From positions 1-64,000 of the forward strand of contig JAMPAQ010000001.1 in assembly GCA_023667145.1 (NCBI GenBank): 64,000 bases of DNA, read 5' to 3'. Of this stretch, positions 26,201-45,138 are shown in pieces. Source of the stretch: Pseudoflavonifractor sp. GTDB lineage: Bacteria > Bacteroidota > Bacteroidia > Bacteroidales > Muribaculaceae. The position numbers were made by a program, and so were the translations under genes. The notes beneath the pieces are model-generated. The model was given only the letters and a program-made list of their open reading frames with translations. It ran no database searches and was not told where the DNA came from. Positions within the stretch are counted from its first letter, which is position 1. Each line of letters opens with the position of its first letter.

Positions 26201-26467
26201 TCATCCCACAGTGACTATCGGCTGACCAAAGAACGCAGACAGCATTCCAAGCGTAGCGATTGTGAAATTATGCTGACCGCTAAGCCATTTCGTAATCTCG
26301 CTTGGCCTGCGACCGAGAGCATCTGCAAATTGCTTCTTAGTCAAACCTCGCTGGTGCATAAGTTCATCAATGCGGTCAGAAATGGCAAACGATAAATCAA
26401 CTTCTGCCTTTATGTCTGCCGGGATTGAAGCAACCATGTTTCGGTATGTGTTCTTAGCCTCCTTCAT
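26201..26467 (-). CDS. XRE-type helix-turn-helix protein, probable antitoxin
   Basis: The 88-residue protein has a Cro/C1-type HTH at about 30-85 (LTKKQFADALGRRPSEITKWLSG), the form typical of HigA-like antitoxins. It is the second gene of a pair: its ATG overlaps the stop of the upstream gene by four bases. In such pairs the antitoxin binds the toxin and represses the promoter. The role is inferred from fold, size and gene order. Confidence 0.7.
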   Translation of the reverse strand: MKEAKNTYRNMVASIPADIKAEVDLSFAISDRIDELMHQRGLTKKQFADALGRRPSEITKWLSGQHNFTIATLGMLSAFFGQPIVTVG

Positions 26468-26934
26468 AATTCAAAAGTATTATCGGTTTCAATTATTCTT
26501 TCTGTTATGACTACAGAACCATTGCGTTGACCCTCCTTAAGTAATTCTTCAAATTTTTGAAGATTCAGAACATATCCACGTAATGAATCATCTTCCTCGT
26601 ATGTGCGTGAGTTTTTAACACCGCCATTACCGAGTATCAAAATTCCATTAGACAGACGTAGACAGTACAATCGAAGTTTTGAGGATAGCACTGGAAGTGC
26701 TACTACCGAATCTTTCATCTTGCCCTCCGGACGGAACAAGCGTTCAAGTGCTCCCCCATCCGCAATTTTATCAACGATTTGAACTATGCGGAGTAGGTCA
26801 CGGTTAAGTTTGGCATCTTCTATGAATTTTGCATAGAAGCGTTCATACTCCGAGCTGTCTTCTGAGGTAAACTGAATAGAATAAAGAGTACATTGATTAC
26901 CCTCATTCAATAGTATAAGTTCTACTTCACTCAT
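26464..26934 (-). CDS. Possible toxin partner of the HTH protein
   Basis: The 156-residue protein starts with ATG at 26934 (MSEVELILLNEGN); the open frame extends further up, but that part is AT-rich and unlike protein. The middle and end (KLRLYCLRLSNGILILGNGGVKNSRT) resemble Gp49/HigB-like toxins, mRNA interferases of the RelE fold. It overlaps the HTH gene by four bases, in the HigBA order (toxin first). I could not identify catalytic residues, so the toxin role is inferred from context and weak resemblance. Confidence 0.55.
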   Translation of the reverse strand: MSEVELILLNEGNQCTLYSIQFTSEDSSEYERFYAKFIEDAKLNRDLLRIVQIVDKIADGGALERLFRPEGKMKDSVVALPVLSSKLRLYCLRLSNGILILGNGGVKNSRTYEEDDSLRGYVLNLQKFEELLKEGQRNGSVVITERIIETDNTFEL

Positions 26935-26964
26935 AGTCGTAATCTTCGTTTTCTTTTTATAACG

Positions 26965-26972
26965 CAAAAGTA
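26965..26972 (-). promoter_or_regulatory. Probable promoter box of the toxin-antitoxin pair
   Basis: On the minus strand TACTTTTG matches TAnnTTTG, 30 bases before the ATG at 26934. The -33 element is not clear. Confidence 0.5.
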
Positions 26973-27464
26973 CGACAAACATTTCACTTGAAGATAAAAT
27001 GTCGCGAATATTTTTGAGAATAAGGTATAGTATAGGTCTATGTATGTATATACATCCATACCTAACTATATTCATATTCTGACACTCAAAAAGAGGAAGG
27101 CGGGGCAAAAGAAAAATTAGCATACAAACATCCCGACTCTGTTTCCTTTCCCCAGCCACACCCCTATATTATCCATCAGACACCCCCACACAGGCAGTCA
27201 AAAGACGAGATCAACCGTAAATAAAAATCCTTAACAGCCGCTAAAAATCTCAAAATCCATTTCGTCTATCCTACTCATTTTATTTCAATCGTACAATATT
27301 CGTACGAAGCAATATATTTACATTATTTTGTATCAATATGTTGAGTGATGTATTATAAGGCAAGGTATACCTTCTCGCTGTCGCCATCAATGCCATCATC
27401 GCCCTCTTTGCAGCTTGGGCAGATTAGCACAAATAGATTTTCCCTCCAATTAAATTTTTAATGC
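26973..27464. other. AT-rich gene-poor stretch
   Basis: No gene is supported here. Near 27368-27434 an open stretch on the plus strand would encode a hydrophobic run ending AIIALFAAWAD, but a stop codon precedes it directly and there is no start codon. It resembles a second such stretch at 27690-27776 and may be a remnant. Confidence 0.4.
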
Positions 27465-27817: not shown

Positions 27818-28603
27818 TCACATTAGTTTACATTTTGAGACCATCAGAGTTGAACATTCATATAGGGCATAAAGAGGTACAGATACCAGTATTAGAGTGA
27901 GAATATCGGGTGGGGTGATGATGGCGGCAATCAGCATTATAAGGATAAAAGCGTGTTTGCGATACTTAGCCATTTGAGTAGGGGTTAGGACACCCATTTT
28001 GGCAAGTATAAAGGCAATTACTGGAAGTTGGAACACTATCCCCATTAGCAACGTAAGCGATACGAATGTTGAGATGTAACTATCCAACGTCACCATTGTT
28101 TGCACTTTGTTCGCAACGCTATATGTTCCTAAAAATCTGAACGAGATAGGAAACAAGACATAGTAACTCATCATGACACCCATTAAAAATAAGACATAGA
28201 TGCTTATAACTATTTTTGTTGAGTATCTACGTTCATTTTCGAGGAGTGCCGGAGAAACAAATCTGAACAACTCATACATTACGAGAGGGGATGCACATAA
28301 TAGTCCTAAATAGACGGATGTCGTTAGATGAGTCACAAATTGACTTGATAAGTCTGTGGCAATCAAATCAATATTAAAATCGTCAAAATGGAATGACGGA
28401 TTAAATTTGTTGATAAGATTTTCCACACTACAATATGTGATAAATGACGAATTGCTGGGTGCAAGCAGAATATCAAATGTCTTTTCCTTAAAGCAAAATA
28501 TAATGCACGAAAAGACAAATGTTACTCCTAATATGCGGAATAACATTTGTCGGAGAACTTCTAAATGCCCTCCGAAGGATAATAATCCTTCTTCTTGGCT
28601 CAT
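27818..28603 (-). CDS. tatC: Sec-independent translocase subunit TatC
   Basis: TatC is the receptor of the twin-arginine export pathway and recognises RR signal peptides at the inner membrane. The 261-residue protein has six membrane helices, an N-terminal segment with GHLEVLRQMLFR (compare the TatC consensus HLxELRxR), and MYELFRFVSPAL and YVLFPISFRFLG as family signatures. An expanded periplasmic loop lies at about 45-85. It is the last gene of the long operon and follows tatA by two bases. Its likely client, a twin-arginine lipoprotein, is encoded four genes before tatA, at 31674-32396. Confidence 0.92.
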   Translation of the reverse strand: MSQEEGLLSFGGHLEVLRQMLFRILGVTFVFSCIIFCFKEKTFDILLAPSNSSFITYCSVENLINKFNPSFHFDDFNIDLIATDLSSQFVTHLTTSVYLGLLCASPLVMYELFRFVSPALLENERRYSTKIVISIYVLFLMGVMMSYYVLFPISFRFLGTYSVANKVQTMVTLDSYISTFVSLTLLMGIVFQLPVIAFILAKMGVLTPTQMAKYRKHAFILIMLIAAIITPPDILTLILVSVPLYALYECSTLMVSKCKLM

Positions 28604-28605
28604 AT

Positions 28606-28803
28606 TTATTCTTTAGGCTGTTCCGAAGATTGTTGTGTGGTTTGTTCCGGGATGTCGGTTACTTCCTTAACTCCCTTTTTAAACTCACTTACGCCTTTGC
28701 CTAACCCTCTCATCATTTCCGGCAGTTTTTTACCGCCGAAAAGAAGAAGGGCAAGCCCGGCAATAAGCATTAGCTCTGTTGTCCCTATAAATGCGAGTAT
28801 CAT
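28606..28803 (-). CDS. tatA: Twin-arginine translocase subunit TatA/E
   Basis: The 65-residue protein is TatA: a short periplasmic start, one membrane helix (about 8-22, GTTELMLIAGLALLLFGG) with the FGGKKLPE hinge, an amphipathic helix (MMRGLGKGVSEFKKGVKE) and a polar tail. TatA monomers assemble with TatC into the protein-conducting site. The family is short and well conserved, so the call is firm. It lies 5 bases after the 91-residue CXXX-system gene. Confidence 0.94.
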   Translation of the reverse strand: MILAFIGTTELMLIAGLALLLFGGKKLPEMMRGLGKGVSEFKKGVKEVTDIPEQTTQQSSEQPKE

Positions 28804-29087: not shown

Positions 29088-29528
29088 TTATTCCTTTCTG
29101 TTGCCGTTAAACGTAAATTTATATCCTTCAACACCATTTACCGAACATGTGCCTGAATAGTACAATTTGCCACTCTTTGTAACAGTCCCGTCCTCATTGA
29201 TAGCAGCTAAAACGTACTCCGATTTATCTTTTGAGTATCCTACGGTCGTGGGTATGTTTGACAATATCTTTTTCCCATCCCATCTAACAATATCATAATG
29301 GACACTGCCAGCAGATTCCCTACGTATTATGAATGATGCGTTATCATAATTATACGAAGTAGTACCATTGGTAACATAGAGATTGCCAACATATGTTCCT
29401 ACGATTTCTCCTGCCGGATCATATACTGAAGGTTCATCGTCATCGTCATCGTCTCCGCCACAGGATGGCATAATCATCACAGCCATTATCGCCATGAAGA
29501 GTGTTAATAATTTTTGTTTTATATCCAT
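29088..29528 (-). CDS. Small lipoprotein
   Basis: The 146-residue protein has a lipoprotein signal peptide with lipobox IMPSC (Cys23), then a run of aspartates (GGDDDDDDEP), a common Bacteroidetes sequence after the lipid cysteine that may act as surface export signal. The rest is a beta-rich domain of about 110 residues (EIVGTYVGNLYV, CSVNGVEGYKFTF) that resembles lipocalin-like or calycin-type lipoproteins. It lies between the partner maturase (gap two bases) and the small CXXX-system gene (three bases), so it is likely part of the same surface system. Confidence 0.75.
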   Translation of the reverse strand: MDIKQKLLTLFMAIMAVMIMPSCGGDDDDDDEPSVYDPAGEIVGTYVGNLYVTNGTTSYNYDNASFIIRRESAGSVHYDIVRWDGKKILSNIPTTVGYSKDKSEYVLAAINEDGTVTKSGKLYYSGTCSVNGVEGYKFTFNGNRKE

Positions 29529-29530
29529 AG

Positions 29531-30460
29531 TTATGATTTTATGATTTCAAATGGGTCTAAATATTCTATTTCGGGAATTGATATAGATGTCCTTATCTTT
29601 CCTTTTTCTTTCAGAGAATTAAGCAAACGCTTTGATTCATTTCGCTCTAAATGAGACACAACACACTGTTCGTGACTTGGGGTGTTGACTTCAAGCGTGG
29701 TCTTTTGATTGAGCCATACACAACGCTTGCAATGATAGGCATCACACTTTCTACAAATCGGTGCATACTCTAATTTGAGAAGTCGTTGATTAGGAATAGT
29801 AAAACCATCTTTGGGATTACCTACATCGCTAAGACCGTCATAATAGAAAGCCGGGCAGATATAAAATTTGCCGTCGGGTGCAAGCGTTATACTCTCTACC
29901 CCGGCATTGCAGTTGTTCATCTCTGTTAACTGCATCCTATCGGTAACAGGACTTATTTGAATCCCATTCCCAGAGGCTATAACATTCTCAACCGCCTGAG
30001 AGAGTTCACCCAATACTGATTTATAATTTTGAAAATCAGACTCATCAAAATCAGTTATATCATTTACGATAATTCGATATGACTTACTTTTATTGATAAG
30101 ACTAACAAGGTCATCAACACCGTTGAATAACTCTTTTCTATTCAATCGTAGGATAATATTATCGGCTGATTTTTCAGTTAGATCTTGGATAGAATCAATT
30201 CCATTGAATATCACTACATCTCCATTTGACGTATTAGGAGTTATATCAATGTGATCTATGGTATCAATAATCTCTGCATATTCCTTTGGAAGATTACCTG
30301 AGGGATATACAAACTGAACCATCAGATTTTCTTTCATCGCCCATATCAGACCGCTTTTCAAATCATCTATTGGTATGAGCCGTCTGTCACTACTATTATT
30401 ATCGTAATGACAGAACGACACAGACGTATCATCCAAAATGACAATTAGATATTTCAGCAT
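29531..30460 (-). CDS. CXXX-repeat peptide maturase (SPASM-like, no CxxxCxxC)
   Basis: The 309-residue protein lacks the CxxxCxxC radical SAM motif but ends in a cysteine-rich SPASM-like region: CNAGVESITLAPDG, YICPAFYYDG, then CRKCDAYHCKRC near residues 225-240 and a late HEQC. This fits the partner protein known as CXXX repeat peptide maturase, which occurs next to a true radical SAM enzyme in Bacteroidetes cassettes. It may bind the substrate or an auxiliary Fe-S cluster. It overlaps the radical SAM gene by seven bases, suggesting a complex with coupled translation. Confidence 0.7.
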   Translation of the reverse strand: MLKYLIVILDDTSVSFCHYDNNSSDRRLIPIDDLKSGLIWAMKENLMVQFVYPSGNLPKEYAEIIDTIDHIDITPNTSNGDVVIFNGIDSIQDLTEKSADNIILRLNRKELFNGVDDLVSLINKSKSYRIIVNDITDFDESDFQNYKSVLGELSQAVENVIASGNGIQISPVTDRMQLTEMNNCNAGVESITLAPDGKFYICPAFYYDGLSDVGNPKDGFTIPNQRLLKLEYAPICRKCDAYHCKRCVWLNQKTTLEVNTPSHEQCVVSHLERNESKRLLNSLKEKGKIRTSISIPEIEYLDPFEIIKS

Positions 30461-31671
30461 GGCTGTGATTTAATTTGAGGTTTAGATTTCTCGAATTCTT
30501 CTCGCTTCCCTTCAAGTTCAAGAGTGCGGAACAATTTATTCCAATAGTAATTATTAGCTCTCACACGTGCCTTGTGCATTTTGCAGATAGCGACAGAACG
30601 TTGATAGATTGTTGAAGTATCAGCAGCATCATAGTTCTCACCTTGACACCAAGCGCACCCACTTGCCACCTCACAATCCAAACACTTTTGGGGCGACTGG
30701 GTTGTACGGTCAAGAGTAAGAAATGGACGAAGTTTATTCTTGTCTATTCCTTCATTGACATTACCAATAATGATTGGTTTCTTAGAGCGAAGAGAATATG
30801 CCGCAAATCGAGTACACGGATAGAAGTTGCCCTGTGCATCAATGGCAAGCATCTTTCCTGCTCCACACCAGTTGTTGTTTTCCTGAATAGGTATAGGCTT
30901 TCCTATGTGTTCAACAAAAAAAGAACAACTATGACTTTGATATAATTTTTTATCTATTATTTGGTCTGCCAGTAACATTAGCTGGCTTTCGAATTTCAAA
31001 TCATCACCTTTTGTCCAAACATCCTCAAAGACACAGTTTATATTTACATCTGTAATGCCTAAATCATATAAATGCAATACACTTTCACATATATATGGAA
31101 TATCAGGAGAACTTATAGTTACCTTTGTGGCTGCCCCGCAGAACTGTTCAATCCAAAGAGGTATGTTTCTTACGACATCATCATAACTCCCTTTTTCGGG
31201 ATTTATTCCTTTCCATATTCTATTCATGTCATGCTTCTGTCTTGTTCCATCAATCGTTATACCAATTGAAAGATGAGAAGCATTTTTCTTTATGAATTCC
31301 TGAACCTTATATGAGTCATAGTTTATGCCATTCGTTGAAAATGAGAATCTATATGAGTTAAACCAGTGATGATTCAATCTAAATAATTCAGTCTTTATAT
31401 AATCACAGATTTGATTTATAAGATCAATCTCTAAAAAGGGTTCACCACCGATAAAATCAAATACAACAGATGCTTCGGGAAAATCCGATTCATGAGAGAG
31501 GATATAGTCGATTGCTTTTTTAGCAACCGACCACTCCATTCGCTCTTTCTCATTTTTACCTACAAGGTAACAATATTTACAAGCTAATTGACAATCTTTT
31601 GTAACAATAAATGTAATACTTTTTGCTACGCCATCTTGCCAATTCTCACTATTTTTCTTTATTATATTCAT
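30454..31671 (-). CDS. Radical SAM peptide maturase (SPASM), CXXX-repeat target type
   Basis: The 405-residue enzyme has the radical SAM cluster motif CxxxCxxC at Cys27, Cys31 and Cys34 (DCQLACKYCYLVG), a GGEPF motif (FIGGEPFLE) for SAM binding, and a C-terminal SPASM domain with extra cluster cysteines (WCGAGKMLAID, CLDCEVASGCAWCQGE). SPASM maturases alter ribosomal peptides, for instance by thioether or C-C bonds. The adjacent Cys-rich precursor, two bases upstream, is the obvious substrate. The bond formed is not predictable. The gene is clearly AT-richer than the chromosome around it. Confidence 0.85.
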   Translation of the reverse strand: MNIIKKNSENWQDGVAKSITFIVTKDCQLACKYCYLVGKNEKERMEWSVAKKAIDYILSHESDFPEASVVFDFIGGEPFLEIDLINQICDYIKTELFRLNHHWFNSYRFSFSTNGINYDSYKVQEFIKKNASHLSIGITIDGTRQKHDMNRIWKGINPEKGSYDDVVRNIPLWIEQFCGAATKVTISSPDIPYICESVLHLYDLGITDVNINCVFEDVWTKGDDLKFESQLMLLADQIIDKKLYQSHSCSFFVEHIGKPIPIQENNNWCGAGKMLAIDAQGNFYPCTRFAAYSLRSKKPIIIGNVNEGIDKNKLRPFLTLDRTTQSPQKCLDCEVASGCAWCQGENYDAADTSTIYQRSVAICKMHKARVRANNYYWNKLFRTLELEGKREEFEKSKPQIKSQPC

Positions 31672-31673
31672 CC

Positions 31674-32396
31674 TTAACTCCGTCCTACATAGTTACAAGA
31701 GCTGTAGCAGTCCCAACGGCAGGTATTTTGACAGAAATCTTTGCAGCCTCCGTAGCAGCTCGTTCCACAAGAACCCTTACTCATGCCTGAGCATTGCCCG
31801 ACACAGCCACCTATGCATTTACCACTACAAGAAGCACACTCAGTTCTACATTTGCCGTAACAACCATTGTCGCACGCTCCATTACAGGTTGATCCACAAC
31901 TATTAGCACACTGATCTCCACATTCTCCTACACAATTGTTAGCACATGCTTTTGCACAAGCATTAGAGCATTGCCCAGTGCACGAACTACCAGTGCAACC
32001 TCCACCACCATTGTTATACGAGCCGTTGGCACAGCTTGAACAACTTCCACCACCGTTGTTGTACGATCCGTTGGCACAGCTTGAACAACTACCGCCTCCG
32101 TTATTATAAGATCCGTTGGCACAGCTTGAGCAACCGCTACCTCCATTGTTATAAGAGCCATTAGCGCAACTTGTACATCCACTACCGCCGTTGTTATAAG
32201 AACCATTGGCACAACTTGTACATCCACTTGAACCTCCATTCAAGTAGCGTTCAAGTTCATCGTTCTCGTCATCGCATGATGTGAGAAGGAAGTTAGGCAA
32301 TACTCCCACTGCGAGAATCGGGAGAATGCGCCTACCGGCTTTCTTGAAAAAATCCCTTCTTGACAGAAGGTCGTCTTTATCTTTTTGTTTCATCAC
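31674..32396 (-). CDS. Tat-exported CXXX-repeat Cys-rich precursor lipoprotein
   Basis: The 240-residue protein has a twin-arginine signal (SRRDFFKKAG, residues 12-21), a hydrophobic stretch and a lipobox LLTSC (Cys41). Five 15-residue units of the type CTSCANGSYNNGGSG fill residues 59-133. From Cys139 to Cys187 a cysteine occurs at exactly every fourth residue (13 in a row), and the pattern resumes with two breaks up to Cys234; the total is 36 cysteines. This is the CXXX-repeat substrate pattern of the neighbouring radical SAM system. Folding and modification would occur in the cytoplasm before Tat export, which fits tatA/tatC in the same operon. Mature location: membrane-anchored, possibly at the surface. 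Confidence 0.82.
   Translation of the reverse strand: MMKQKDKDDLLSRRDFFKKAGRRILPILAVGVLPNFLLTSCDDENDELERYLNGGSSGCTSCANGSYNNGGSGCTSCANGSYNNGGSGCSSCANGSYNNGGGSCSSCANGSYNNGGGSCSSCANGSYNNGGGGCTGSSCTGQCSNACAKACANNCVGECGDQCANSCGSTCNGACDNGCYGKCRTECASCSGKCIGGCVGQCSGMSKGSCGTSCYGGCKDFCQNTCRWDCYSSCNYVGRS
31998..32222 (-). repeat. Five 45-bp coding tandem repeats
   Basis: Five in-frame copies of a 45-bp unit encode the 15-residue repeats of the precursor. Copies differ mainly at synonymous sites and at the T/S and S/G positions. Such arrays readily gain or lose units between strains. Confidence 0.9.
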
Positions 32397-33328
32397 TTAT
32401 GTCCGAATTTTGCGAATTTATACGAGATAGTACCTAACACTGCTATATTATTGAGTTTCTGACCGCACGAGGATGACACTTCTGTGAAGTCATATTCAAC
32501 GTTACACCCAATGGCAAATTGTTTCCACTCAATTTGAAAGCCACCGCCTACGCCAACTTGGAAATCAGAACTCCATGAATTGGAACTTGTCTCCAAATCT
32601 CCGAGAGGGATTCCTAATGAAAGTCCACCTTTAACGACAACATTAACAGGCGATAACGGAATTCGATAACCAAATGGGTAAATTCTTGCATGAACATAGT
32701 TCATATCAAAAGATGCCGCGCCTCGCTTATCATATCCTAGTGCCAATTCCGAATACCAGTTTGCGGGAATAAAGCTAACAGGATTTTCAAAATACAACTG
32801 AGCTACAATATCAGCCGAATATGACATAGTACCATTGACATCGCCATTATCCCATAAGAAGTTTGACCATCCGAATCCACCCTGCACAGCAAGATACAGA
32901 TTAAAATTGTCGGATAAAGAGCTTCCGAAAGTTAGTGGGGTTTCTACTTCCAACTCTCCGGCATCCTTAATTTCACGGAATCTGTTGTTGTCGGGAACTT
33001 CTTTCTCTGCAACAGCCCTCTCCTCTACGACTTCTTTCTTGGGTTTAGGTTCAGGCTTAGGCATCTCTTTCTTCGACAATGGAGTAATATACTTCTCACT
33101 CACATAGCCAGTCTTGCCATTGAACTTTACTTTTGCCCAACCATTGCTGACTGACAAAACTTCAATTTCTTGACCACTATTAAATGTACCCAAAACCGAT
33201 GCACTTGTTGATGCCGATTTACGCACATTAAGCCTTGATGATGAGGTTACATGATAATTGTTCTCAGCGAATGCCGATACCGCACCTAACATCAAAGCAA
33301 TCAGCAATGTCACTTTTCGCAGTTTCAT
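32393..33328 (-). CDS. SH3b-domain outer-membrane barrel-like protein
   Basis: The 311-residue protein has a signal peptide (about 1-21), a bacterial SH3 domain (about 25-85: RLNVRKSASTSASVLGTF, GWAKVKFNGKTGYVSEKYI), a proline- and charge-rich linker (about 85-125) and a C-terminal beta-rich region (about 135-311) ending YKFAKFGHK that looks like an outer-membrane barrel. SH3b domains often bind peptidoglycan, so the protein could tie wall and outer membrane. Its stop overlaps the precursor start by four bases; coupling suggests a link to display or folding of that lipoprotein. Confidence 0.7.
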   Translation of the reverse strand: MKLRKVTLLIALMLGAVSAFAENNYHVTSSSRLNVRKSASTSASVLGTFNSGQEIEVLSVSNGWAKVKFNGKTGYVSEKYITPLSKKEMPKPEPKPKKEVVEERAVAEKEVPDNNRFREIKDAGELEVETPLTFGSSLSDNFNLYLAVQGGFGWSNFLWDNGDVNGTMSYSADIVAQLYFENPVSFIPANWYSELALGYDKRGAASFDMNYVHARIYPFGYRIPLSPVNVVVKGGLSLGIPLGDLETSSNSWSSDFQVGVGGGFQIEWKQFAIGCNVEYDFTEVSSSCGQKLNNIAVLGTISYKFAKFGHK

Positions 33329-33348: not shown

Positions 33349-34623
33349 TTAACCGACCGCTTCGGCGGTTGTAATCTTGAATATCACTATCTTGTTGGTG
33401 AGGGGGTCGTAAACGCCATAGATGCCGGTCGCGCCTGTGGGTATGGTGTATTCAATCTTTGAGATGCCGTTTACGCTGGTCTCTACAGATTTTGGAAGAA
33501 TGGCGCTCTTTACCATATCTTCGAAAGTAAAGCCATAGAAGTGGGATTTGGCTTTCTTGTCCTGATACTTGCGGACTTTAATCAGTTTGAGCTGCTGTGC
33601 CTTCGCATTGTCCATGCGAAACTCAGCCGTAATCACCTGATGACTGGCGGGGGTAATATTCAGGCTCAATGAATCGGTATCAACGGTCACGATACCTGAC
33701 ACCTCTTTTGTGGGCTGCCAACGGATAACATTACGGTTGATTGCCGCCTGATCATCGGCCAACACTATGTCGGTAAGAGGCCGGTATTGAGGATTTTTTT
33801 CTTTACGATATTCTACGATATCGGCAAGATTGAGGCTCATTGTCGAGCCATTTTCCAACTGGATAAGCAGGTAGTCGTTAGTTATCTCATCACTGTCAGA
33901 GTAGTTGCGCTCAAAGATGACGCCACGGTGTGTCCCGCCATTTTTCAGCTGGACTATGTCTATCAGGTCTGATTGTTCAAGCAGAGACTGGTTGGGGTTG
34001 ATCTTGAATCGGTTGTCCTTCATCACATCCTCGGTGTTGAACACCTCGACAACTCCATTGTCACGCAGAAGGCTCATGGTCTGGCCTGGCACCTCCTCCA
34101 CATACTGACCCTCATACTCCATGCCTGACGCGAGCTTGTAGCGCCGATTTACGCCCGACAGCATCAGTTTGGGACGCTTGTCGGCTTTCACGACCTCTAT
34201 TGTGTCCCATGGCAATGAGTATGAGTTGGGGGTGAGTTCGAGATAACGTACCTTAGCACCCTTTTCAAGGATGCGCACGCGATTTATCGAGCCATTCGTG
34301 GTAATGATATCGCTGAGAGTGAGTGTGCGCGAATCACCCATGCCGTCATAGGCATCATTCTTATCAGCCCACTCTCTCCACTCGGGCGAAAGAGAAGAGA
34401 TTCTTACATCCGAGTCAATGATTGATTTCACGTCCTTGCTTGGGAGGAGTACGGTTGCCTTCGAGGTGGTGAACGTAAAGTTTTCGCCGGGACGTTGCCT
34501 TGAGATGTAGCCTGTCAGTTCGGTACCATCCTTCAACACGACGGTCAGGTTGTCCTGAGCCGAAGCCGTGGCCAGCCCTGCGACAAGCGCAAGGCCAAAC
34601 ATAAATGCCTTAGTTGTTCTCAT
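33349..34623 (-). CDS. Exported protein of unknown function with repeated beta modules
   Basis: The 424-residue protein has a signal peptide (about 1-22, ATASAQ). I see at least three diverged copies of a beta module in which a glycine-rich strand pair is followed by a hydrophobic strand and an acidic end: about 29-68 (LKDGTELTGYI), 165-205 (GMEYEGQYVEE) and 225-275 (LKNGGTHRGVIFE). They resemble small Sm-like or PRC-type barrels, but I do not recognise the family. It overlaps the S41 protease gene by 14 bases. Confidence 0.6.
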   Translation of the reverse strand: MRTTKAFMFGLALVAGLATASAQDNLTVVLKDGTELTGYISRQRPGENFTFTTSKATVLLPSKDVKSIIDSDVRISSLSPEWREWADKNDAYDGMGDSRTLTLSDIITTNGSINRVRILEKGAKVRYLELTPNSYSLPWDTIEVVKADKRPKLMLSGVNRRYKLASGMEYEGQYVEEVPGQTMSLLRDNGVVEVFNTEDVMKDNRFKINPNQSLLEQSDLIDIVQLKNGGTHRGVIFERNYSDSDEITNDYLLIQLENGSTMSLNLADIVEYRKEKNPQYRPLTDIVLADDQAAINRNVIRWQPTKEVSGIVTVDTDSLSLNITPASHQVITAEFRMDNAKAQQLKLIKVRKYQDKKAKSHFYGFTFEDMVKSAILPKSVETSVNGISKIEYTIPTGATGIYGVYDPLTNKIVIFKITTAEAVG

Positions 34624-35953
34624 TATAATGTTTATTATTAAATTCAGTCATAAAAGACGGCTCGCCAACGGGAGTCACCATCAGGGACGAGCGTAAGCCA
34701 CGAATCGCCATGTGCTGTATCACCGATTCGCCCGATATATACCTCAACGCCGCACTGAGCAACAACTCGTCGGAGTCGCCAATCTCCTTCTTAGACACAG
34801 AATAACCATCCGATATATAATAATCGGGGACAAGGCCATCGTCGGGAGTGGTCTCCCCTTCAGCGTTATAATACCTCATCGTTATAGGCTGGAGAGCATA
34901 TTTATATTGGGTGTCATATATCGTCCATGACCCGACCCCCTTGCCAGTAGTGGTCTCTCCTATTACCACCACATCCATGTATGGTCGCAAGCATATTATA
35001 GCCGCCTCGCTTGCCGAGGCCGTATGACGGGATGTCAAAAATATCACGCGCCGAAGATTGAGCGGGATGATTTTTGAACCTAATATATTGTCATCAAGGG
35101 AGACCGGGGTCTCGTAATAGGTGAATGTATACGGAGACCCGAGTGAAGCCAGATATTCACGTGACAATATATCGTTGTAACTACACTTTTGAAAAACATT
35201 GTTATACGCGGCAGATGGCGCGACACTGTTACACAAATACCGACACGTATTCACGTAACCGCCCGGGTTATATCGCAAATCTACCACAAGTTCGTCTATA
35301 CCTGTGTCGTATAGCTTGACAAGTGACGCTTCCAAGTCAGATATCTGGTCAAATTCCAGATAGCATATGTATCCGACATTATGCCCGGAGACATTGTAGA
35401 CGCTGTCCAACAATACTGTATTATTAGTCGATCCCAGCGACGCGAGCCCTTCCTTGAATGTCTTGTCGGTCTTGACAAACCGATTATCGCTAATCTGCAA
35501 TTTTCGGTAAGTATTATAGCCGGTATTGGTTTCGATTTCGACAAAATCGCCGCGCCTCATCCCCTGCTCTCTCAACAGCGGGTTGGTTATGTAAAGAATC
35601 TGATATACAATATGCCCACCCTGTGTCTTATATCGCTGGTAAGCGAAACCATATTCCGACCGCCCCCTGTAATATGGATTATTAGTAAAATAGGAGAACC
35701 TGTCCTTAGGGGACAGCAGACTCTCAAAAAACTCCTTGGGCGCAAGTTGATAATCGCAGGATAGCGAGTCTGGCATATCCTGACGCCACAGATAAGAGTG
35801 GTTCATCTGCTCATACACCCATTTGTTAAACTCCAAATATATGTAGTCTGAATCCTCTTGCGAGGGTTCATCCTGAGGAATTTCAGGTTCCTCGGATGAA
35901 CACCCGCAAAGGATCAGGAGTAAAAGAATAAATATAGAGCTGTAGTATCTCAC
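34610..35953 (-). CDS. S41-family peptidase lipoprotein
   Basis: The 447-residue protein has a lipoprotein signal (lipobox LILCGC, Cys18 or nearby) and a C-terminal processing peptidase fold of family S41. The probable nucleophile is the serine in SRHTASASEAAI and the general base lysine lies in ETTTGKGVGSW. A PDZ-like region precedes it (about 115-190, GMRRGDFVEIE), and the C-terminal part contains GLVPDYYIS. It would act in the periplasm or at the surface, perhaps processing products of its own operon. Neighbour gaps are six bases and a 14-base overlap. Confidence 0.82.
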   Translation of the reverse strand: MRYYSSIFILLLLILCGCSSEEPEIPQDEPSQEDSDYIYLEFNKWVYEQMNHSYLWRQDMPDSLSCDYQLAPKEFFESLLSPKDRFSYFTNNPYYRGRSEYGFAYQRYKTQGGHIVYQILYITNPLLREQGMRRGDFVEIETNTGYNTYRKLQISDNRFVKTDKTFKEGLASLGSTNNTVLLDSVYNVSGHNVGYICYLEFDQISDLEASLVKLYDTGIDELVVDLRYNPGGYVNTCRYLCNSVAPSAAYNNVFQKCSYNDILSREYLASLGSPYTFTYYETPVSLDDNILGSKIIPLNLRRVIFLTSRHTASASEAAIICLRPYMDVVVIGETTTGKGVGSWTIYDTQYKYALQPITMRYYNAEGETTPDDGLVPDYYISDGYSVSKKEIGDSDELLLSAALRYISGESVIQHMAIRGLRSSLMVTPVGEPSFMTEFNNKHYNENN

Positions 35954-35959
35954 ATCAAA

Positions 35960-36949
35960 TTACTTTAGCTTCATATCATCATACTTGGCAACAGGACAGT
36001 AATCCATGGAGGCCGACTTCATCAGCATATCGCCAAACGACATGGCTGAGCGTCCACTGACCAATGCGCCGCAATCAATAGTCTTTTCGGCTATGTCACA
36101 CCTTACCAGGTACTCGCTGCCGATGCCGAGATTGATGCTGGCAGACCGTGTCAACGAATACCATCCGTTAGAAGTCTTATATTCAAATTCCACGTTGGTA
36201 TTACCATAGGGCAACGTGAACACATAGTCATATATATTCTCGACATTCGGACTGTCATCCCAATCCGAGACCTCTATATGAGATATTCGCCAATCATACG
36301 TAGATGAAGCCTGAACATTCCACTCGGGCTGAGCCAAGTTATCAAATGTCACGTAATCGGCGCTACGATTTATGCCCAACTGATAGTCGGTAACATTAGA
36401 CCAGGAGCGTATGCCTTCATAGTACACAATGATGAGCGAGCCGGCAGGCTGGACGTTCATGTCAACCTGAGTCCCGTCACCTGAGATTATATCGGTACTT
36501 GCGATACCGAGGATATTTTTCTGACTTCCAAGATAGCCGGTATCAGAAAGTTTCAAGGTACTCAGATTTTCCTTGCCTGACAGTTCCCAATACTCAAAGC
36601 CGTCCGACTTCCTTGTTATGTCGGTGATGGCAATCGCCTTATATCTCTCGCCCATCGCCAGGTTAAGATTGGATGTCATAAGATGGGCATAATCGGTGAA
36701 AAACTGCTCATCCTCTTGAACGAGACTGCCCGACTCATTATAGACGAGAAGCCTGATGCGAAGTTGATATGAACTGTTTATCACGGTGAGGTCCCCGGCA
36801 TTCCATTCCTGAAATCCGCTTATGACGGTATTGGGATTGATCTTGAACGTAGTTGTCTGGCTTACGGGTATGTCGTCGTTTGAGCAAGACGACAGAATCA
36901 CAGCGAATACTGCTGCGAGAATTGCAAAATATTTTTTCATCTGTCTCAT
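35960..36949 (-). CDS. Fimbrillin/Mfa-like lipoprotein
   Basis: The 329-residue protein carries a lipobox (ILSSC, about Cys22) and a two-domain beta-sandwich-like sequence. The first half (YQLRIRLLVYNESGSLV, LNLAMGERYKAIAITD) resembles the N-terminal domain of FimB/Mfa2-type fimbrillins of Bacteroidales, which anchor or form pili. The fit is partial and there is no pilus cluster around, so it may be a surface lipoprotein that only shares the fold. It follows the outer-membrane barrel gene by three bases. Confidence 0.6.
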   Translation of the reverse strand: MRQMKKYFAILAAVFAVILSSCSNDDIPVSQTTTFKINPNTVISGFQEWNAGDLTVINSSYQLRIRLLVYNESGSLVQEDEQFFTDYAHLMTSNLNLAMGERYKAIAITDITRKSDGFEYWELSGKENLSTLKLSDTGYLGSQKNILGIASTDIISGDGTQVDMNVQPAGSLIIVYYEGIRSWSNVTDYQLGINRSADYVTFDNLAQPEWNVQASSTYDWRISHIEVSDWDDSPNVENIYDYVFTLPYGNTNVEFEYKTSNGWYSLTRSASINLGIGSEYLVRCDIAEKTIDCGALVSGRSAMSFGDMLMKSASMDYCPVAKYDDMKLK

Positions 36950-36952
36950 CTT

Positions 36953-37633
36953 TTATTTGATTACCGAGAACAGCCAGCCTATCCCGAGAGAGATGGTGCT
37001 GACCTTTGTCTTGAAGTTTCCGGCCATATCGCTGTTACCCAAGTTATAACGCAGGTCGGCGGTAAAGCCGTTCTTGAGTTTGCAATTGACACCGATTGAA
37101 AGCATCACGTCGTATGCCTTCACCTTATCCATCTGAAAGACGATGTCATTGTAAGGCAACTCCTTGGGTGACGTTGAGAATGCCCCGGTAAATGTCGGGC
37201 CAAACTCGATGGCAAATGTCGGGATGAAATACCACTGGAACAGGACGGGGATCTCAAAGCAGTGCATCGTGATATTCTCGACATCACTGTGGAGGGAGTG
37301 CATCGCATAAAGGGCCTCAAGCTGGACACCGAAACGCTCCGTACCAAACGGACGACCGGCAGGACGGCCAAAACGGAGATTGGCAGCTACACCGGCAGAA
37401 AATCCGATGTTGCCCGAGATACCGAGATCTATTCCGTCAGGATCACCCGCGATAGAATAGTTGACACCCACTTTGGGCCCTGTCGAAAGGGCATACGGCT
37501 TCAGCACCTCACCGCCGATGGGATCTTCACTTGCTGTGAAATCAACATCATCTACCGGTACTATGCCTTGGGCTGTGGCTGTGACTGCCATGCCGGCAAT
37601 AACAGCAAGAGTAAGAAATGCTCTTTTTAACAT
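36953..37633 (-). CDS. Outer-membrane beta-barrel protein (porin-like family)
   Basis: The 226-residue protein has a signal peptide (about 1-21, TATAQG) and alternating hydrophobic strands typical of the small OMP_b-brl barrels (KVGVNYSIAG, FGVQLEALYAM, FTADLRYNLG), ending with strand VSTISLGIGWLFSVIK with the aromatic/hydrophobic pattern of barrel C-termini. It should sit in the outer membrane. It lies between the WG-repeat gene (20 bases) and the fimbrillin-like lipoprotein gene. Confidence 0.75.
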   Translation of the reverse strand: MLKRAFLTLAVIAGMAVTATAQGIVPVDDVDFTASEDPIGGEVLKPYALSTGPKVGVNYSIAGDPDGIDLGISGNIGFSAGVAANLRFGRPAGRPFGTERFGVQLEALYAMHSLHSDVENITMHCFEIPVLFQWYFIPTFAIEFGPTFTGAFSTSPKELPYNDIVFQMDKVKAYDVMLSIGVNCKLKNGFTADLRYNLGNSDMAGNFKTKVSTISLGIGWLFSVIK

Positions 37634-37653
37634 AGATTGGTTGTTTATATGAA

Positions 37654-39162
37654 TTAAAAATATGGTTCAAGATATAATGGGGTCGGAGTACCGGCCTTCT
37701 CGCCCGAGCTAAGCACGACAGAGGCACTGACATGTTGCGCGACCGTAATCTTTTCGGTGACACTGATTCTCGCACTTCCACCCGGCTGGATGGTATAGGT
37801 GTGCGAGACCGTCTGCTTGGCGCTCAATGTCGCTGTCACAGTGACAGCCTTGTTTGAGTCATTATAGATAACCGCATAAATGGTCACATTGTCATTCTCG
37901 TCCGCTTTTGACGATACGGCTCTTGGCTGCGTGACACGCAATCTTATCGGATATGAGAGTTCAAAGTCATTGACAGCCTCAGCCACGGTGAGACCTTCGG
38001 ACTCAAGCACGGCCCTCAATCTGCACTTCTCCACATTAGCCTTGGGCGATGGTGTTACCGACAGACTTGCCTTACCGTTACTGAATGATAATTGCGACGA
38101 GACATCACGCATTATGCCATCACCGTTATCGAGTTTAAGAGAAAGGTTATTATGGGACGCCGGCGCGGTGATATTGAGAGTGACGTTCTCAACATTTCCT
38201 TTCCGTCCGACATCGAGCCTTGACCTTGAGCCAGATGCCGATTTCATAGCCACGTCATAATTTCCATCGACGACAGTCAACAGTCCTTGCTTACCGGCCT
38301 TGGCCGCTACAACATATCCATCGGCATACTGGAATGGAAATGAGTCAAACTGCGGCTTTACCACCAACTCATTACCTTGTCTCAAGCCGTACAGACCATT
38401 TTCAGAAAACTCGCTGAACGTCTTCTTGTCCACGTAACTGTCGCCGCTCTTTTGAGCAGCATTGTTATTCTTGTATATCTGCCGGAACTCACTCTCGCTG
38501 AGTTTTCTGATTTTCTTACCGTTTACTCCGATTAGGGCAAAATCCTTATTGTAGCCCACAGCTGCACATCCACCGGAAAAACAACTCGCGCTCGTCATGT
38601 CACCATAATGAAAATCGACTACCAACATACTCCCGGACGGATTACGGTCGTAGTTATCGGTTATGTACTTGAAATAATTTCCTTGCTTCACGGGAGCAAA
38701 GCCCTCCTTGAAAGGGAATGCCCTGTCAAACTGACATCTGACAGCCAATACACCCGACGGATAGATATAGCCATATTTGCCACTACGGTCTGACACGGCC
38801 AATTTACCTTCTGAGAAATATTGGTTGCTCGACGGAAGATAGAGCCTTTCACGCAAAGTGCTGACCTTGCCCGACTCACTTATTACAGCCTGTAACAAGT
38901 ACCTTGAGCCCTCCTTGATTCCGGCCAACGCATAACCGTTGACAAATGGTGTGATATACTCGTAGCTTGCGGGGAGTATCTCAACATTACCGAACTTCAC
39001 GAGTCCCCACTTCCCACCCTGACGGAATGCGAAGATGTCAGAATGGTAGCGGACCAGCTCATCATATCGCGGGGATATCGCCCAAGTGGCAGTCTTGGCA
39101 CATGCTATGTCAGATGCCATCACTGTCACAAGTATTGTCAATATGGCTTTGATAGACCTCAT
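37654..39162 (-). CDS. Exported WG-repeat protein
   Basis: The 502-residue protein has a signal peptide (about 1-22) and several WG beta repeats in the first 300 residues (FRQGGKWGLVKFG, DRSGKYGYIYPSG, NGLYGLRQGNELVV, KAGKQGLLTVVDG), which form repeat scaffolds. The last 180 residues look like Ig-type beta domains (VTLNITAPASHNNLSLKL, IRLRVTQPRAV). It probably acts as a periplasmic or surface binding scaffold. Its start overlaps the protease gene by four bases. Confidence 0.75.
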   Translation of the reverse strand: MRSIKAILTILVTVMASDIACAKTATWAISPRYDELVRYHSDIFAFRQGGKWGLVKFGNVEILPASYEYITPFVNGYALAGIKEGSRYLLQAVISESGKVSTLRERLYLPSSNQYFSEGKLAVSDRSGKYGYIYPSGVLAVRCQFDRAFPFKEGFAPVKQGNYFKYITDNYDRNPSGSMLVVDFHYGDMTSASCFSGGCAAVGYNKDFALIGVNGKKIRKLSESEFRQIYKNNNAAQKSGDSYVDKKTFSEFSENGLYGLRQGNELVVKPQFDSFPFQYADGYVVAAKAGKQGLLTVVDGNYDVAMKSASGSRSRLDVGRKGNVENVTLNITAPASHNNLSLKLDNGDGIMRDVSSQLSFSNGKASLSVTPSPKANVEKCRLRAVLESEGLTVAEAVNDFELSYPIRLRVTQPRAVSSKADENDNVTIYAVIYNDSNKAVTVTATLSAKQTVSHTYTIQPGGSARISVTEKITVAQHVSASVVLSSGEKAGTPTPLYLEPYF

Positions 39163-40736
39163 TCCCTTACCTTATGCTTGTTGTAGAGTTCGACCAAGTG
39201 CTTGATGTTGCAGCAATATGTGACATCCGTATTCCTAAAACCGCTACATAGCACACCTACAAGACGATGATTGCTATCACTTACAGGCGACCCGCTGAAT
39301 CCACCAATTCCAGTTGCTTGTATCTGAATTTGATTGTCATCCGGCACTTTGCTAATCTTTGTTGAGTGATTAGTCGGATGCAATTCTTTTCCATTGAACA
39401 GTTTAGTACCCACAACATCTCCAATAGGATAACCTACAATATTTAGCTCTTCTGTTTGAGGAATCAATGACCGTTCATCGACTCTTGCTTTATCAATATC
39501 ATAGATTGCTCCTAATTTAACTATATGATCTGGCGTTTTGGCTGATTTCAATCTAATCAATGCGATATCTTTATCTTTATCTCCAGATTCAGCAATGACT
39601 TGAGCCGGGAGCAGATCTCTATCATTATCTATTTTAGAGCCAGTCAATCCTACTCCAAAATATTCAAGCGAACCTCCAATTTCTATTTCGGAACTACTCA
39701 TGCGATTAAAACGGGCTTGTGCTTCTTCAAGACTTGAACTGGTGCCCATTGCCAAACGCGCAGCAAACTGATTCTTCATGGTCATAATGAAATTACGAAT
39801 ATCATCTTCATAATTTTCTTTTTCATATTCCCATGGTACGGCTATATGACGATTCGTACCCATTTCTCCATTTTTTGATATGAAGAATGCAGTACCAGTA
39901 TACGGATATGGGATTATTGAACCATTATTATTTGAAAGAGTCTTGCAGACTACATTGAAATCCTTATTTACCAGGTTCCCATTACGATCAAACCCGAATG
40001 TCCATACTTCTGGCCATCCATCGACTTTGCCTTTGAAAGGATCGTCTTTGATTTTGGCCTCAAAATAGAAGCCACCATAGACACATGCCGAGGCATTTTC
40101 CATTGCTTGAGTAGTGACAGGAGATACCGTACTGTTCCAAGGGACATATTTCCAGGCAGCCCATCCGGCAACGACAAGGACAGCTATAGCGGCGGCTATA
40201 CCGATAACGTTTTTCCACTGATTACCGGGTATAAATTGGGTGAGATTGACGGGAATACCGCCACAGACAATCGAGTCGCCACGTTTTACCTGCCGTGTCT
40301 GTCCGGGGTTCAGGCGCTCACCATTAATCGTCGACCCATTCTTGCTATGGTCCTGGAGGAAAGCTTTGCCATTCTTGTCAATCTTCAAGGTGGCATGATA
40401 CCGGCTCGCGGTGTTACCCGCGATCTGAATGTCATTTCTCATGCTTGTCCCGATACCATATACGGCCTTAAATCTCGACAAATCTTCAGGCTGCGGCACC
40501 TGATCCCAAATAAGCTCGACATCGCCGAAACGGATTGCATCACCACGCTTTACCGACACCTGGGTACCCGGTTTTATAGGACGGTTCATGATAAACGTCC
40601 CGTTACGGCTATTCTTATCCTCAAGGAGGATGTCACCGTTGTTGAGTATGGTTATCTCGGCATGGAGCGCACTTGCCTTGTCGCTGTGGAGAACGATGTC
40701 ACAGCTGGAATCCCTGCCTACTTTTAACAGTCTCAT
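39159..40736 (-). CDS. FHA-FHA-transmembrane trypsin-like serine protease
   Basis: The 525-residue protein has two FHA domains (about 1-75 and 88-165; motifs VGRDSSCDIVLH, NSRNGTFI, and NGSTINGE), a membrane helix (about 176-196) and a C-terminal S1-type protease domain. The catalytic triad can be assigned: His297 in TNRHIA, Asp390 in DKDIALIRL, Ser481 in GFSGSPV. Topology places the phosphothreonine-binding FHA domains in the cytoplasm and the protease outside. This would couple kinase activity inside to proteolysis in the periplasm. The first FHA lacks the usual SRxH (SALHAE here); the second has ASRYHA. Confidence 0.85.
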   Translation of the reverse strand: MRLLKVGRDSSCDIVLHSDKASALHAEITILNNGDILLEDKNSRNGTFIMNRPIKPGTQVSVKRGDAIRFGDVELIWDQVPQPEDLSRFKAVYGIGTSMRNDIQIAGNTASRYHATLKIDKNGKAFLQDHSKNGSTINGERLNPGQTRQVKRGDSIVCGGIPVNLTQFIPGNQWKNVIGIAAAIAVLVVAGWAAWKYVPWNSTVSPVTTQAMENASACVYGGFYFEAKIKDDPFKGKVDGWPEVWTFGFDRNGNLVNKDFNVVCKTLSNNNGSIIPYPYTGTAFFISKNGEMGTNRHIAVPWEYEKENYEDDIRNFIMTMKNQFAARLAMGTSSSLEEAQARFNRMSSSEIEIGGSLEYFGVGLTGSKIDNDRDLLPAQVIAESGDKDKDIALIRLKSAKTPDHIVKLGAIYDIDKARVDERSLIPQTEELNIVGYPIGDVVGTKLFNGKELHPTNHSTKISKVPDDNQIQIQATGIGGFSGSPVSDSNHRLVGVLCSGFRNTDVTYCCNIKHLVELYNKHKVRE

Positions 40737-40764
40737 AATCTATTTCTTATTTAGTATTAGAATA

Positions 40765-41385
40765 TTAGCCGAGAGTATGTTTCGACTTTTTCTTTGACTT
40801 GCTGTCCTTGTCGTTGTTCTTGCCCGACTTGCCTTTACCATTATCAGCAGGCTTGGCTGGAGCGGCTTTCTTGACCTCCTTACCCTTTTCGGCTTTCTTG
40901 ACGGAATCACGACGTGCCTTGTCTGCCGCTTTCTTGATTGAATCTTGTTTCTCCACATTCTTTATCGAATCGAGACGCTCTGCTTCCTTTTGCTTGATGA
41001 GCGCGGAGTCTGTGAGTTCAGTCGGGGATGCACCGCCATCATCAGACTTCAAGAGCTTAGGGCCAAAGACTATTCCGGCAATCACAGCGAGTGCAATCAC
41101 AGCGATAAGGACATACATAGTCCACCTATTGGATTTGGGCACTTGATTCCAATCCAGTTTTGCCACATGAGCCAGCGATATCACATCCTTGCGGGTGACC
41201 GGGACCGGCACGTTCTGGGATATGCGTATACCATTTACATAAGTTCCGTTGCTGCTTTGGTCAATGATGGTCATTTTGCCCGAAGGTGTGATATTCAGCA
41301 ACGCGTGACGACGGCTGATAACATCAGTCGAGTCGTTTATTACAATGTCGCAGTTAAGGTCGCGACCTATCGAATAAGTTTTCAT
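40765..41385 (-). CDS. FHA-domain transmembrane protein with Lys-rich tail
   Basis: The 206-residue protein starts with an FHA domain (about 1-75: SIGRDLNCDIVIND, ISRRHA, SSNGTYVNG), followed by a membrane helix (about 88-110) and a highly charged tail of about 90 residues rich in K, D, A and S, predicted coiled or disordered. FHA domains bind phosphothreonine peptides. A cytoplasmic FHA and periplasmic tail is the simplest topology. It probably recruits a phosphorylated partner such as a kinase or the FHA protein at 45139-45930. Confidence 0.82.
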   Translation of the reverse strand: MKTYSIGRDLNCDIVINDSTDVISRRHALLNITPSGKMTIIDQSSNGTYVNGIRISQNVPVPVTRKDVISLAHVAKLDWNQVPKSNRWTMYVLIAVIALAVIAGIVFGPKLLKSDDGGASPTELTDSALIKQKEAERLDSIKNVEKQDSIKKAADKARRDSVKKAEKGKEVKKAAPAKPADNGKGKSGKNNDKDSKSKKKSKHTLG

Positions 41386-41430
41386 ATCTAATTGCTTTAG
41401 CGCTAAATATTATCTGATTTAGTTTCCTTA

Positions 41431-42606
41431 TCACTTTCCTCCTGATCGCCTAACCGGCTTTCCGCTCGACGCTTTCTCGGGCTTTCCGCCCGACACCTTC
41501 TCATCCGTCTCTTTCGAGGCTATCTTATTGTTAAGCTCCGTGACGGTCTTTTCGAGTTGCTTCACCTTAGACTCGTATTCCTTGATTGAAGATGCAGCGG
41601 ATGATTGAGCGGTCTTAATCTCATCTTTCTGGGTCTTTATGACTGATTCCATCTCCGCGATCACCAATTTAAGAGAATCAGCTTGAGTCTGGGCAGCAGT
41701 CTCAACCTCCGATACTGATGAATTGTTCCGACTGAGCAATATGCCATTGAATACCAAACTCAACAGACAGATTAACGTGACCACGCCGAATAGGAATTTG
41801 GTTTTAGTGTTCATTTTTGATTTGAGTTTTGATTTTATGTTAGTTTCAATTATTGCGATAGTAAGATTGTCGTGGCCTCCACCATCCCGACGTCCGTTAC
41901 CATCAATTGTGGTGGCAATCTCGTCAGTGACCGTCCCGAGCGCATGTTTCTTGTCAGAAGCCATCTCTATAAGGACGGTCTCGGCCACAGAGCCATGGAT
42001 ACCGTCAGTAGTAAGGACAAACCTATCACCGGCCTCATAGGGTAATTCGACTGTATCTACCTCTATGTCAGGTTTTATGCCCAAGGCTCGGGTGATTACG
42101 TTTGACTGGGCCGACAGTCGTGCTTGCTCCTCCGTGATGACCTTTTGTCTGACCAAGTCAAAAACCATTGAATGATCAAACGTTCGGAATACCTTTGTCT
42201 TGCCACGCAGCTGGTACACACGGCTGTCACCCACATGTGCCACTATAGCCGACTCCTCACTTATGAGCAATACCGTACAAGTAGACCCCATGCCCTTGAG
42301 AGCGGGTGTCTCCTGTCCTTTCTCCATGATAGCGAGATTGGCGCGACGTATGGCCTTTATCAGTATATTTACGGCGGTGTCATCCGGATTACCCTCCTTA
42401 ATACCGTTTATAATCTCATTTACAGCTATGGTAGATGCTGTCTTGCCCCCAGGGCCACCACCCATACCATCGCAGACTGTTACGACAAAGCCGTATGGCG
42501 TGTCGGCACTCCCGTATGAATCTTGATTCTCGGAACGACCTCCTATCCGAGACTCAGCAAACCCGGTGATAAAGTCGGGTGTATGTAGTTGTTGAACCAA
42601 ATCCAT
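41431..42606 (-). CDS. PP2C-type Ser/Thr phosphatase with membrane helix and coiled coil
   Basis: The 391-residue protein has a PP2C/PPM domain in its first 250 residues with metal-binding motifs SENQDSYG, VCDGMGGG, GDSRVYQL, TTDGIHG and GHDNLT. It removes phosphate from Ser/Thr and would oppose the two kinases encoded upstream. A membrane helix (about 268-290) and a coiled coil (about 300-365) with a G/K-rich tail follow, so the catalytic part is cytoplasmic and the coiled coil periplasmic. Gap to the kinase gene: 14 bases. Confidence 0.9.
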   Translation of the reverse strand: MDLVQQLHTPDFITGFAESRIGGRSENQDSYGSADTPYGFVVTVCDGMGGGPGGKTASTIAVNEIINGIKEGNPDDTAVNILIKAIRRANLAIMEKGQETPALKGMGSTCTVLLISEESAIVAHVGDSRVYQLRGKTKVFRTFDHSMVFDLVRQKVITEEQARLSAQSNVITRALGIKPDIEVDTVELPYEAGDRFVLTTDGIHGSVAETVLIEMASDKKHALGTVTDEIATTIDGNGRRDGGGHDNLTIAIIETNIKSKLKSKMNTKTKFLFGVVTLICLLSLVFNGILLSRNNSSVSEVETAAQTQADSLKLVIAEMESVIKTQKDEIKTAQSSAASSIKEYESKVKQLEKTVTELNNKIASKETDEKVSGGKPEKASSGKPVRRSGGK

Positions 42607-42620
42607 TTTTAAGACAGTTT

Positions 42621-43544: not shown

Positions 43545-43545
43545 A

Positions 43546-45120: not shown

Positions 45121-45138
45121 CAAATTTAGAGATTATAG

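Follow-up and report, generated by a model that had tools for sequence, protein, structure and literature searches.

A cysteine-repeat precursor with a twin-arginine signal and a lipobox, and its operon with radical SAM maturase and TatAC genes

RiPP precursors usually leave the cell through ABC exporters. In the DNA analysed here (64,000 nucleotides, hereafter the window), an earlier note had described a RiPP-like precursor carrying both a twin-arginine (Tat) signal and a lipobox, and had read it as a product that would be modified inside the cell, exported by Tat and anchored by lipid as a surface fibre or coat. How would such a protein be made and exported, and does it stand alone? We found that it is one member of a large family already named in NCBIfam, with about 80 related loci. 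The proposed order of modification, Tat export and lipid anchoring is supported by the gene context, but the precursor is not a lone hybrid. In what we regard as the best full explanation, and a likely one, the operon around this precursor would make and export a modified lipoprotein.

The precursor gene and its operon

The open reading frame, previously placed at 31674-32396 with 240 residues, is real, but it lies on the minus strand, the plus strand reading of this interval being full of stops and thus ruled out. A GTG start at 32396 (240 aa) was dropped in favour of the ATG at 32393 (239 aa), because the latter overlaps the stop of the upstream gene as TGATG. The features of the precursor and of the neighbouring genes are collected in Table 1. 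All the motifs described earlier are present, namely SRRDFFKK, the lipobox, the five CxxC units, and the 13 cysteines at a spacing of four with two breaks after them. SRRDFFKK agrees with the Tat-type motif (S/T)RRxFLK in front of an N-terminal hydrophobic stretch, and the stretch that lies between it and the lipobox ends, as in lipoproteins, at the lipobox cysteine (Cys40 of LTSC).

Table 1. Positions in the window of the precursor, its parts and the genes around it
Feature	Position	Strand	Remarks
SH3-domain protein (PF08239), 5' of the precursor	32393..33328	-	one-base overlap TGATG
CXXX-repeat precursor, 239 aa	31674..32393	-	Tat signal, lipobox, CxxC units, CXXX runs
Twin-arginine motif SRRDFFKK, precursor residues 11-18	32340..32363	-	
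Lipobox LTSC, precursor residues 37-40, lipid Cys = Cys40, acidic DDENDE after it	32274..32285	-	
Five CxxC units of 15 residues each, precursor residues 58-132	31998..32222	-	
First CXXX run, 13 Cys at spacing four, precursor residues 138-186	31836..31982	-	
Second CXXX run, 4 Cys, precursor residues 189-201	31791..31829	-	
Third CXXX run, 7 Cys, precursor residues 209-233	31695..31769	-	
Radical SAM/SPASM maturase TIGR04115, with CxxxCxxC	30454..31671	-	601 bits vs cut-off 350
TIGR04119 'CXXX repeat peptide maturase', without CxxxCxxC	29531..30460	-	222.6 bits vs cut-off 150
Small lipoprotein (PSC-GGDDDDDD), same operon, no family match	29088..29528	-	
TIGR04116, CXXX modification system protein, 91 aa	28809..29084	-	98 bits vs 50
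TatA	28606..28803	-	TIGR01411 60 bits vs 53.9; PF02416
TatC, CXXX clade	27818..28603	-	TIGR00945 168.8 bits vs 132.7

The CxxC pairs of the precursor (58/61, 73/76, 88/91, 103/106 and 118/121) recur with a period of 15, and the DNA of this region is a 45-bp tandem repeat with 5.2 copies. The whole precursor has 36 cysteines, and the mature chain is 18% Cys. The longest run of cysteines at spacing four has 13 members, whereas shuffling the residues of the mature part 20,000 times gave runs of 7 at most. In one relative, L039, this 15-residue unit occurs in four copies. L039 keeps CTSCANGSYNNGGSG letter-identical despite many synonymous changes, with a maturase gene only 66% identical in DNA; therefore, the unit is maintained by protein-level selection. 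Within our sample, the 15-residue CxxC units of the window precursor were found elsewhere only in L039. The window precursor scores 15 bits against the repeat model TIGR04114, below the cut-off of 20, and is unreported by TIGR04117 at E 0.1; its CXXX runs are nonetheless plain by eye in the sequence.

The precursor gene is followed by those for TIGR04115, TIGR04119, the small lipoprotein, TIGR04116, TatA and TatC, in this order, and the gaps between operon genes range from -7 to +5 bases. On the 5' side, the gene for the SH3-domain protein, the C-terminal part of which gives the impression, from its sequence, of an outer-membrane barrel, is, judging from the TGATG overlap, translationally coupled to the precursor gene. 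The same-strand run continues upstream as far as 45930, and no gap in it exceeds 45 bases. Its nearly gapless part at 33349-45930 (minus strand) encodes a 424-aa protein, an S41 protease lipoprotein, a 329-aa lipoprotein, an outer-membrane barrel, a WG-repeat protein, an FHA-trypsin protein, an FHA protein, a PP2C protein, two Ser/Thr kinases and another FHA protein. Except for the 424-aa gene in L034, these genes do not recur beside other CXXX loci, and the kinase, FHA and PP2C genes were ruled out as members of the system on this ground. Downstream of tatC, at 26201-27159 (minus strand), lie a helix-turn-helix gene and, next to it, a gene whose product of 231 residues matches no family; the two may form a toxin-antitoxin-like pair.

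Related loci and their precursors

To place the operon among its relatives, 80 loci were fetched around relatives of the maturase, mostly from MAGs of gut Bacteroidales whose hosts were ruminants or other animals. Two cultured strains are among them, Xylanibacter rarus 109 (L090) and Muribaculaceae Isolate-002 NCI (L104). These loci share ancestry, and the p values given below are hence optimistic. The gene order in about 80 loci is one or more precursors, the maturase, TIGR04119, sometimes further precursors, TIGR04116, TatA and TatC. Where 4 kb of sequence was available downstream, which was so for 65 loci, TIGR04119 and TIGR04116 were always present (65/65) and a local TatC was found in 51. 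Thus the idea that TatAC accompanies every CXXX locus is refuted by its absence from 14 of the 65, although for 13 of these 14 a TatC is encoded elsewhere in the genome. An apparent extra neighbour family at 30 loci was dropped as a shadow frame, being nearly all antisense to TIGR04116. TIGR04116 genes (L166 6856-7188; L165) were also seen in a genome without a TIGR04115 maturase, G007, one of them close to nucleotidyltransferase-like and short ORFs.

The predicted CXXX radical SAM system is already named in NCBIfam (TIGR04114, TIGR04115, TIGR04116, TIGR04117 and TIGR04119), and so is not new as such. As in that system, the maturase, TIGR04119 and TIGR04116 of the window score far above their cut-offs and stand beside the precursor. 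Unlike that system, the window precursor falls under the repeat model and has a lipobox and 15-residue CxxC units. Among 40 sampled precursors, 37 matched TIGR04117 and 28 matched TIGR04114 at E up to 0.1. Literature searches under the names 'CXXX repeat' and TIGR04115 found no paper, a search for a twin-arginine RiPP precursor found nothing, and the system is catalogued but apparently unstudied. What appears to be new here, NCBIfam being compared by models and names only, is that the system is linked to a TatAC clade dedicated to it and that TIGR04119 is a putative pseudo-enzyme.

The leader of the precursors is conserved to an unusual degree. In a set of 130 ORFs that carry six or more CXXX units, picked blind to the leader, an RR leader (RRx[FLM] plus a hydrophobic residue) was found in 123, as against 129 of 3436 control ORFs (3.8%). 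The leader consensus is RRxFFKKAAK..LPILGA, in which Leu and Pro at +12/+13 are 90% and 95% conserved. This conservation extends beyond the known needs of Tat, which suggests that the Tat signal peptide may double as the leader recognised by the maturase. When other Tat substrates were sought in the window's genome (93% complete) with the strict pattern RRxF[FLIVM]K alone, the precursor was the sole match that lay close to the start of an ORF and was followed by a hydrophobic stretch.

The lipobox is less general. A lipobox is present in about 30 of 135 RR precursors, and about 80 are signal-peptidase-I-like, the remainder being unclear; the lipobox counts (29-30) come from stricter patterns, a first, looser one with 48 hits having been dropped as too permissive. 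The lipobox reported by the earlier note is real, but it is the trait of a minority subtype and not standard for CXXX precursors, most relatives having Tat leaders of the signal-peptidase-I type. In L080 (2760-8215), eight diverse CXXX precursors with differing leaders mix lipobox and non-lipobox types.

In 25 of 30 lipobox precursors, at least 2 acidic residues are found at +2 to +7, in resemblance to the surface-export signal (LES) of Bacteroidota. The window precursor has DDENDE at these positions, acidic and with no exact match to the published LES consensus. It shares with the LES lipoproteins of Bacteroidota, such as those of B. fragilis with the surface export signal SDDDD after the lipid Cys (PMC5080379), an acidic run behind that Cys (here CDDENDE), and differs from them in having Asp instead of Ser after the Cys, a Tat instead of a Sec leader and a Cys-repeat body. 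The SH3/barrel gene family was found at 10 of 28 lipobox loci and at none of 53 others (p 7e-6, kinship ignored). The acidic residues and the neighbouring barrel gene together suggest that the lipoprotein may be exposed at the outer-membrane surface.

The loci contain from one to eight diverse precursors with a median length of 111 aa, and conserved leaders are joined to variable cores, as would suit an arsenal of toxins or signals. The family could then consist of antagonistic or signalling peptides delivered to the surface, one subtype being exported by Tat and lipidated and the others, including the approximately 80 with signal-peptidase-I-like leaders, being released by signal peptidase I. 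However, the recurrent neighbours of the related loci include neither an immunity gene nor a protease nor a dedicated exporter of the outer membrane. Cores with as many as 74 Cys and lengths of hundreds of residues also look more like structural proteins, and we consider this possibility unlikely.

The maturase, its partners and their chemistry

The setting of the precursor is that expected of a thioether RiPP, in which a SPASM-type radical SAM maturase with CxxxCxxC adjoins a Cys-rich precursor. CxxxCxxC is present in 85 of 85 maturases, and the closest solved structure to the maturase is CteB (5WGG, 1.4e-24). Neither an ABC exporter nor a leader peptidase or protease is recurrent among the neighbours of related loci, and together with the adjoining maturase this supports the RiPP-type setting proposed in the earlier note.

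The structural model of TIGR04119 (pLDDT 86.7) matches CteB in Foldseek with E 3.3e-9 and TM 0.68. CxxxCxxC is missing in all 81 TIGR04119 copies, and the SPASM-like cysteines are invariant. TIGR04119 is therefore most likely, as far as the model indicates, a pseudo-radical-SAM partner subunit, perhaps with a role in substrate binding or electron transfer. TIGR04116 is modelled as a confident small fold (pLDDT 94), for which Foldseek returned nothing below E 0.98 and a repeat look gave only generic helical hairpins; a known leader-binding or Tat-chaperone fold is thus unsupported for this protein.

PapB links Cys to Asp or Glu with a Cys-X3-Asp/Glu spacing (PMC9413430), and the Cys-X3 spacing of the precursor echoes this. 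The PapB/freyrasin system and the SCIFF-CteB ranthipeptides also have a related maturase, the window maturase matching the PapB model with 194.9 bits (2e-57), below the cut-off of 340. However, Asp and Glu are scarce at the X positions of the CXXX units, where Gly occupies X2 in 38% and one of Ser, Gly and Thr occupies X3 in 71%; therefore, the chemistry is not simply that of PapB. The present system differs further from those of PapB and CteB in its long precursor, its Tat signal and lipobox, and its additional pseudo-radical-SAM partner. CefA/CefB (Cys-every-fifth, NF038107) likewise combines regular Cys spacing with a radical SAM/SPASM maturase, but its Cys spacing and maturase family are different, the window maturase matching the CefB model only weakly (57 of 600 bits). 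We take the modification to be probably of the thioether type, but it may also be a different cross-link or a modification of another sort.

Alternatively, the cysteines may be wholly or partly free or metal-binding, so that the lipoprotein would buffer copper or soft metals at the cell surface. The Cys content of the mature chain (18%) would agree with this, as would the repeat number, which varies freely among precursors as expected of a sponge. Moreover, bufferins are Cys-rich RiPPs that chelate copper, in which a signal peptide replaces the classic leader and some of which are predicted lipoproteins (PMC12452194). However, bufferins combine Sec with MNIO, whereas here Tat is combined with radical SAM and no MNIO domain was found in the scanned operon proteins. 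No metal-handling gene recurs beside the related loci and radical SAM cross-linking usually uses up thiols, which makes metal or thiol buffering a quite improbable function.

TatAC and the route of export

An extra TatC was found in 4 of 5 maturase genomes and in 1 of 55 relatives. Across the order, it was found in 4 of 6 maturase genomes and 7 of 192 others (p 7.5e-5); this order sample was used in place of a pooled count (p 4e-8), which was discarded for counting some genomes twice. The CXXX-linked TatC proteins form one clade apart from housekeeping TatC (33 rows, support 100/99). The linked TatC of L092 and L112 lie outside the main CXXX clade, as if TatC had been recruited a second time and independently. 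The TatC copies of the window's genome belong to the CXXX clade only, and comprise the operon copy, a copy in an orphan TIGR04116-TatA-TatC set (L144 7830-9192, C11 about 350,800-352,200; C11:350892) with no maturase or precursor adjoining, and a truncated copy (L145 8392-8763).

The residues of these proteins were numbered with the E. coli TatC sequence as a guide. At the Glu170 position, Gln is found in 50 of 60 CXXX-clade TatC, whereas housekeeping TatC has Glu in 35 and Gln in 1 of 36. The Glu15 position is Val in 51 of 60 CXXX-clade TatC and is also variable among housekeeping copies, and Glu103 is unchanged in all copies compared. Accordingly numbered, the window TatC has Val at Glu15, Gln at Glu170 and the conserved Glu103. 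In a Tat structure from 2026 (PMC13323110), the twin arginines are contacted by Glu15 and Glu103, and the substitution E170A blocks transport in E. coli (PMC10092561). As a tentative proposal, which we hold with somewhat less than even confidence, this TatAC may export only correctly modified CXXX proteins: the leader would be a Tat signal with a translocon of its own altered at Glu15 and Glu170, the folding check would serve as quality control of cross-linking, and some Bacteroidales would thereby carry a lipid-anchored, cross-linked repeat protein at their surface.

With TatA and TatC in the operon and RR near-invariant in the relatives, the Tat signal claimed at the outset is supported. The reasoning that the precursor would be modified first and exported afterwards is supported as well. 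Sec lipoproteins normally can combine a lipobox with an acidic surface signal, and motif matches by themselves are no proof of Tat use, but a Sec-exported, disulfide-bonded Cys-rich lipoprotein, to which the RR pair and the Tat genes would be incidental, is highly improbable in view of the RR frequency in CXXX ORFs (123/130 vs 3.8% background), the operon-linked and clade-specific TatAC and the conserved maturase pair.

The product is thus probably, to judge from gene content and context, a thioether-type RiPP, with modification in the cytoplasm and then Tat export, lipidation and display at the surface. The maturase, aided by TIGR04119 and perhaps TIGR04116, would recognise the signal peptide as a leader and install radical cross-links, probably of the thioether type, on the CXXX units in the cytoplasm. 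The operon TatAC would then export the modified, folded chain, signal peptidase II would cut off the leader, and Cys40 would be lipidated. The acidic residues past Cys40 would route the lipoprotein to the surface of the outer membrane, where the coupled SH3/barrel protein would be close by. Once mature, it would be a repeat-built surface lipoprotein of 200 residues with 18% Cys, the length of which would evolve through gain and loss of repeats. Such a product fits a structural or protective role better than a small toxin; this assignment is the weakest step and a rather doubtful one, and the fibre or coat suggested by the earlier note is a guess.

Sec signal peptides on RiPP precursors have been called rare (PMC12452194). 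In the loci described here, RiPP-type maturation appears to be coupled to a dedicated translocon of Tat, the pathway that carries folded proteins, which would be an unusual route for a RiPP. The CXXX-clade TatC offers Gln at the position where Ala stops transport in E. coli (PMC10092561), and the system as a whole is a natural one for asking whether Tat discriminates between modified and unmodified substrate. It also presents a putative radical SAM/pseudo-radical-SAM pair in gut Bacteroidales that include cultured strains.
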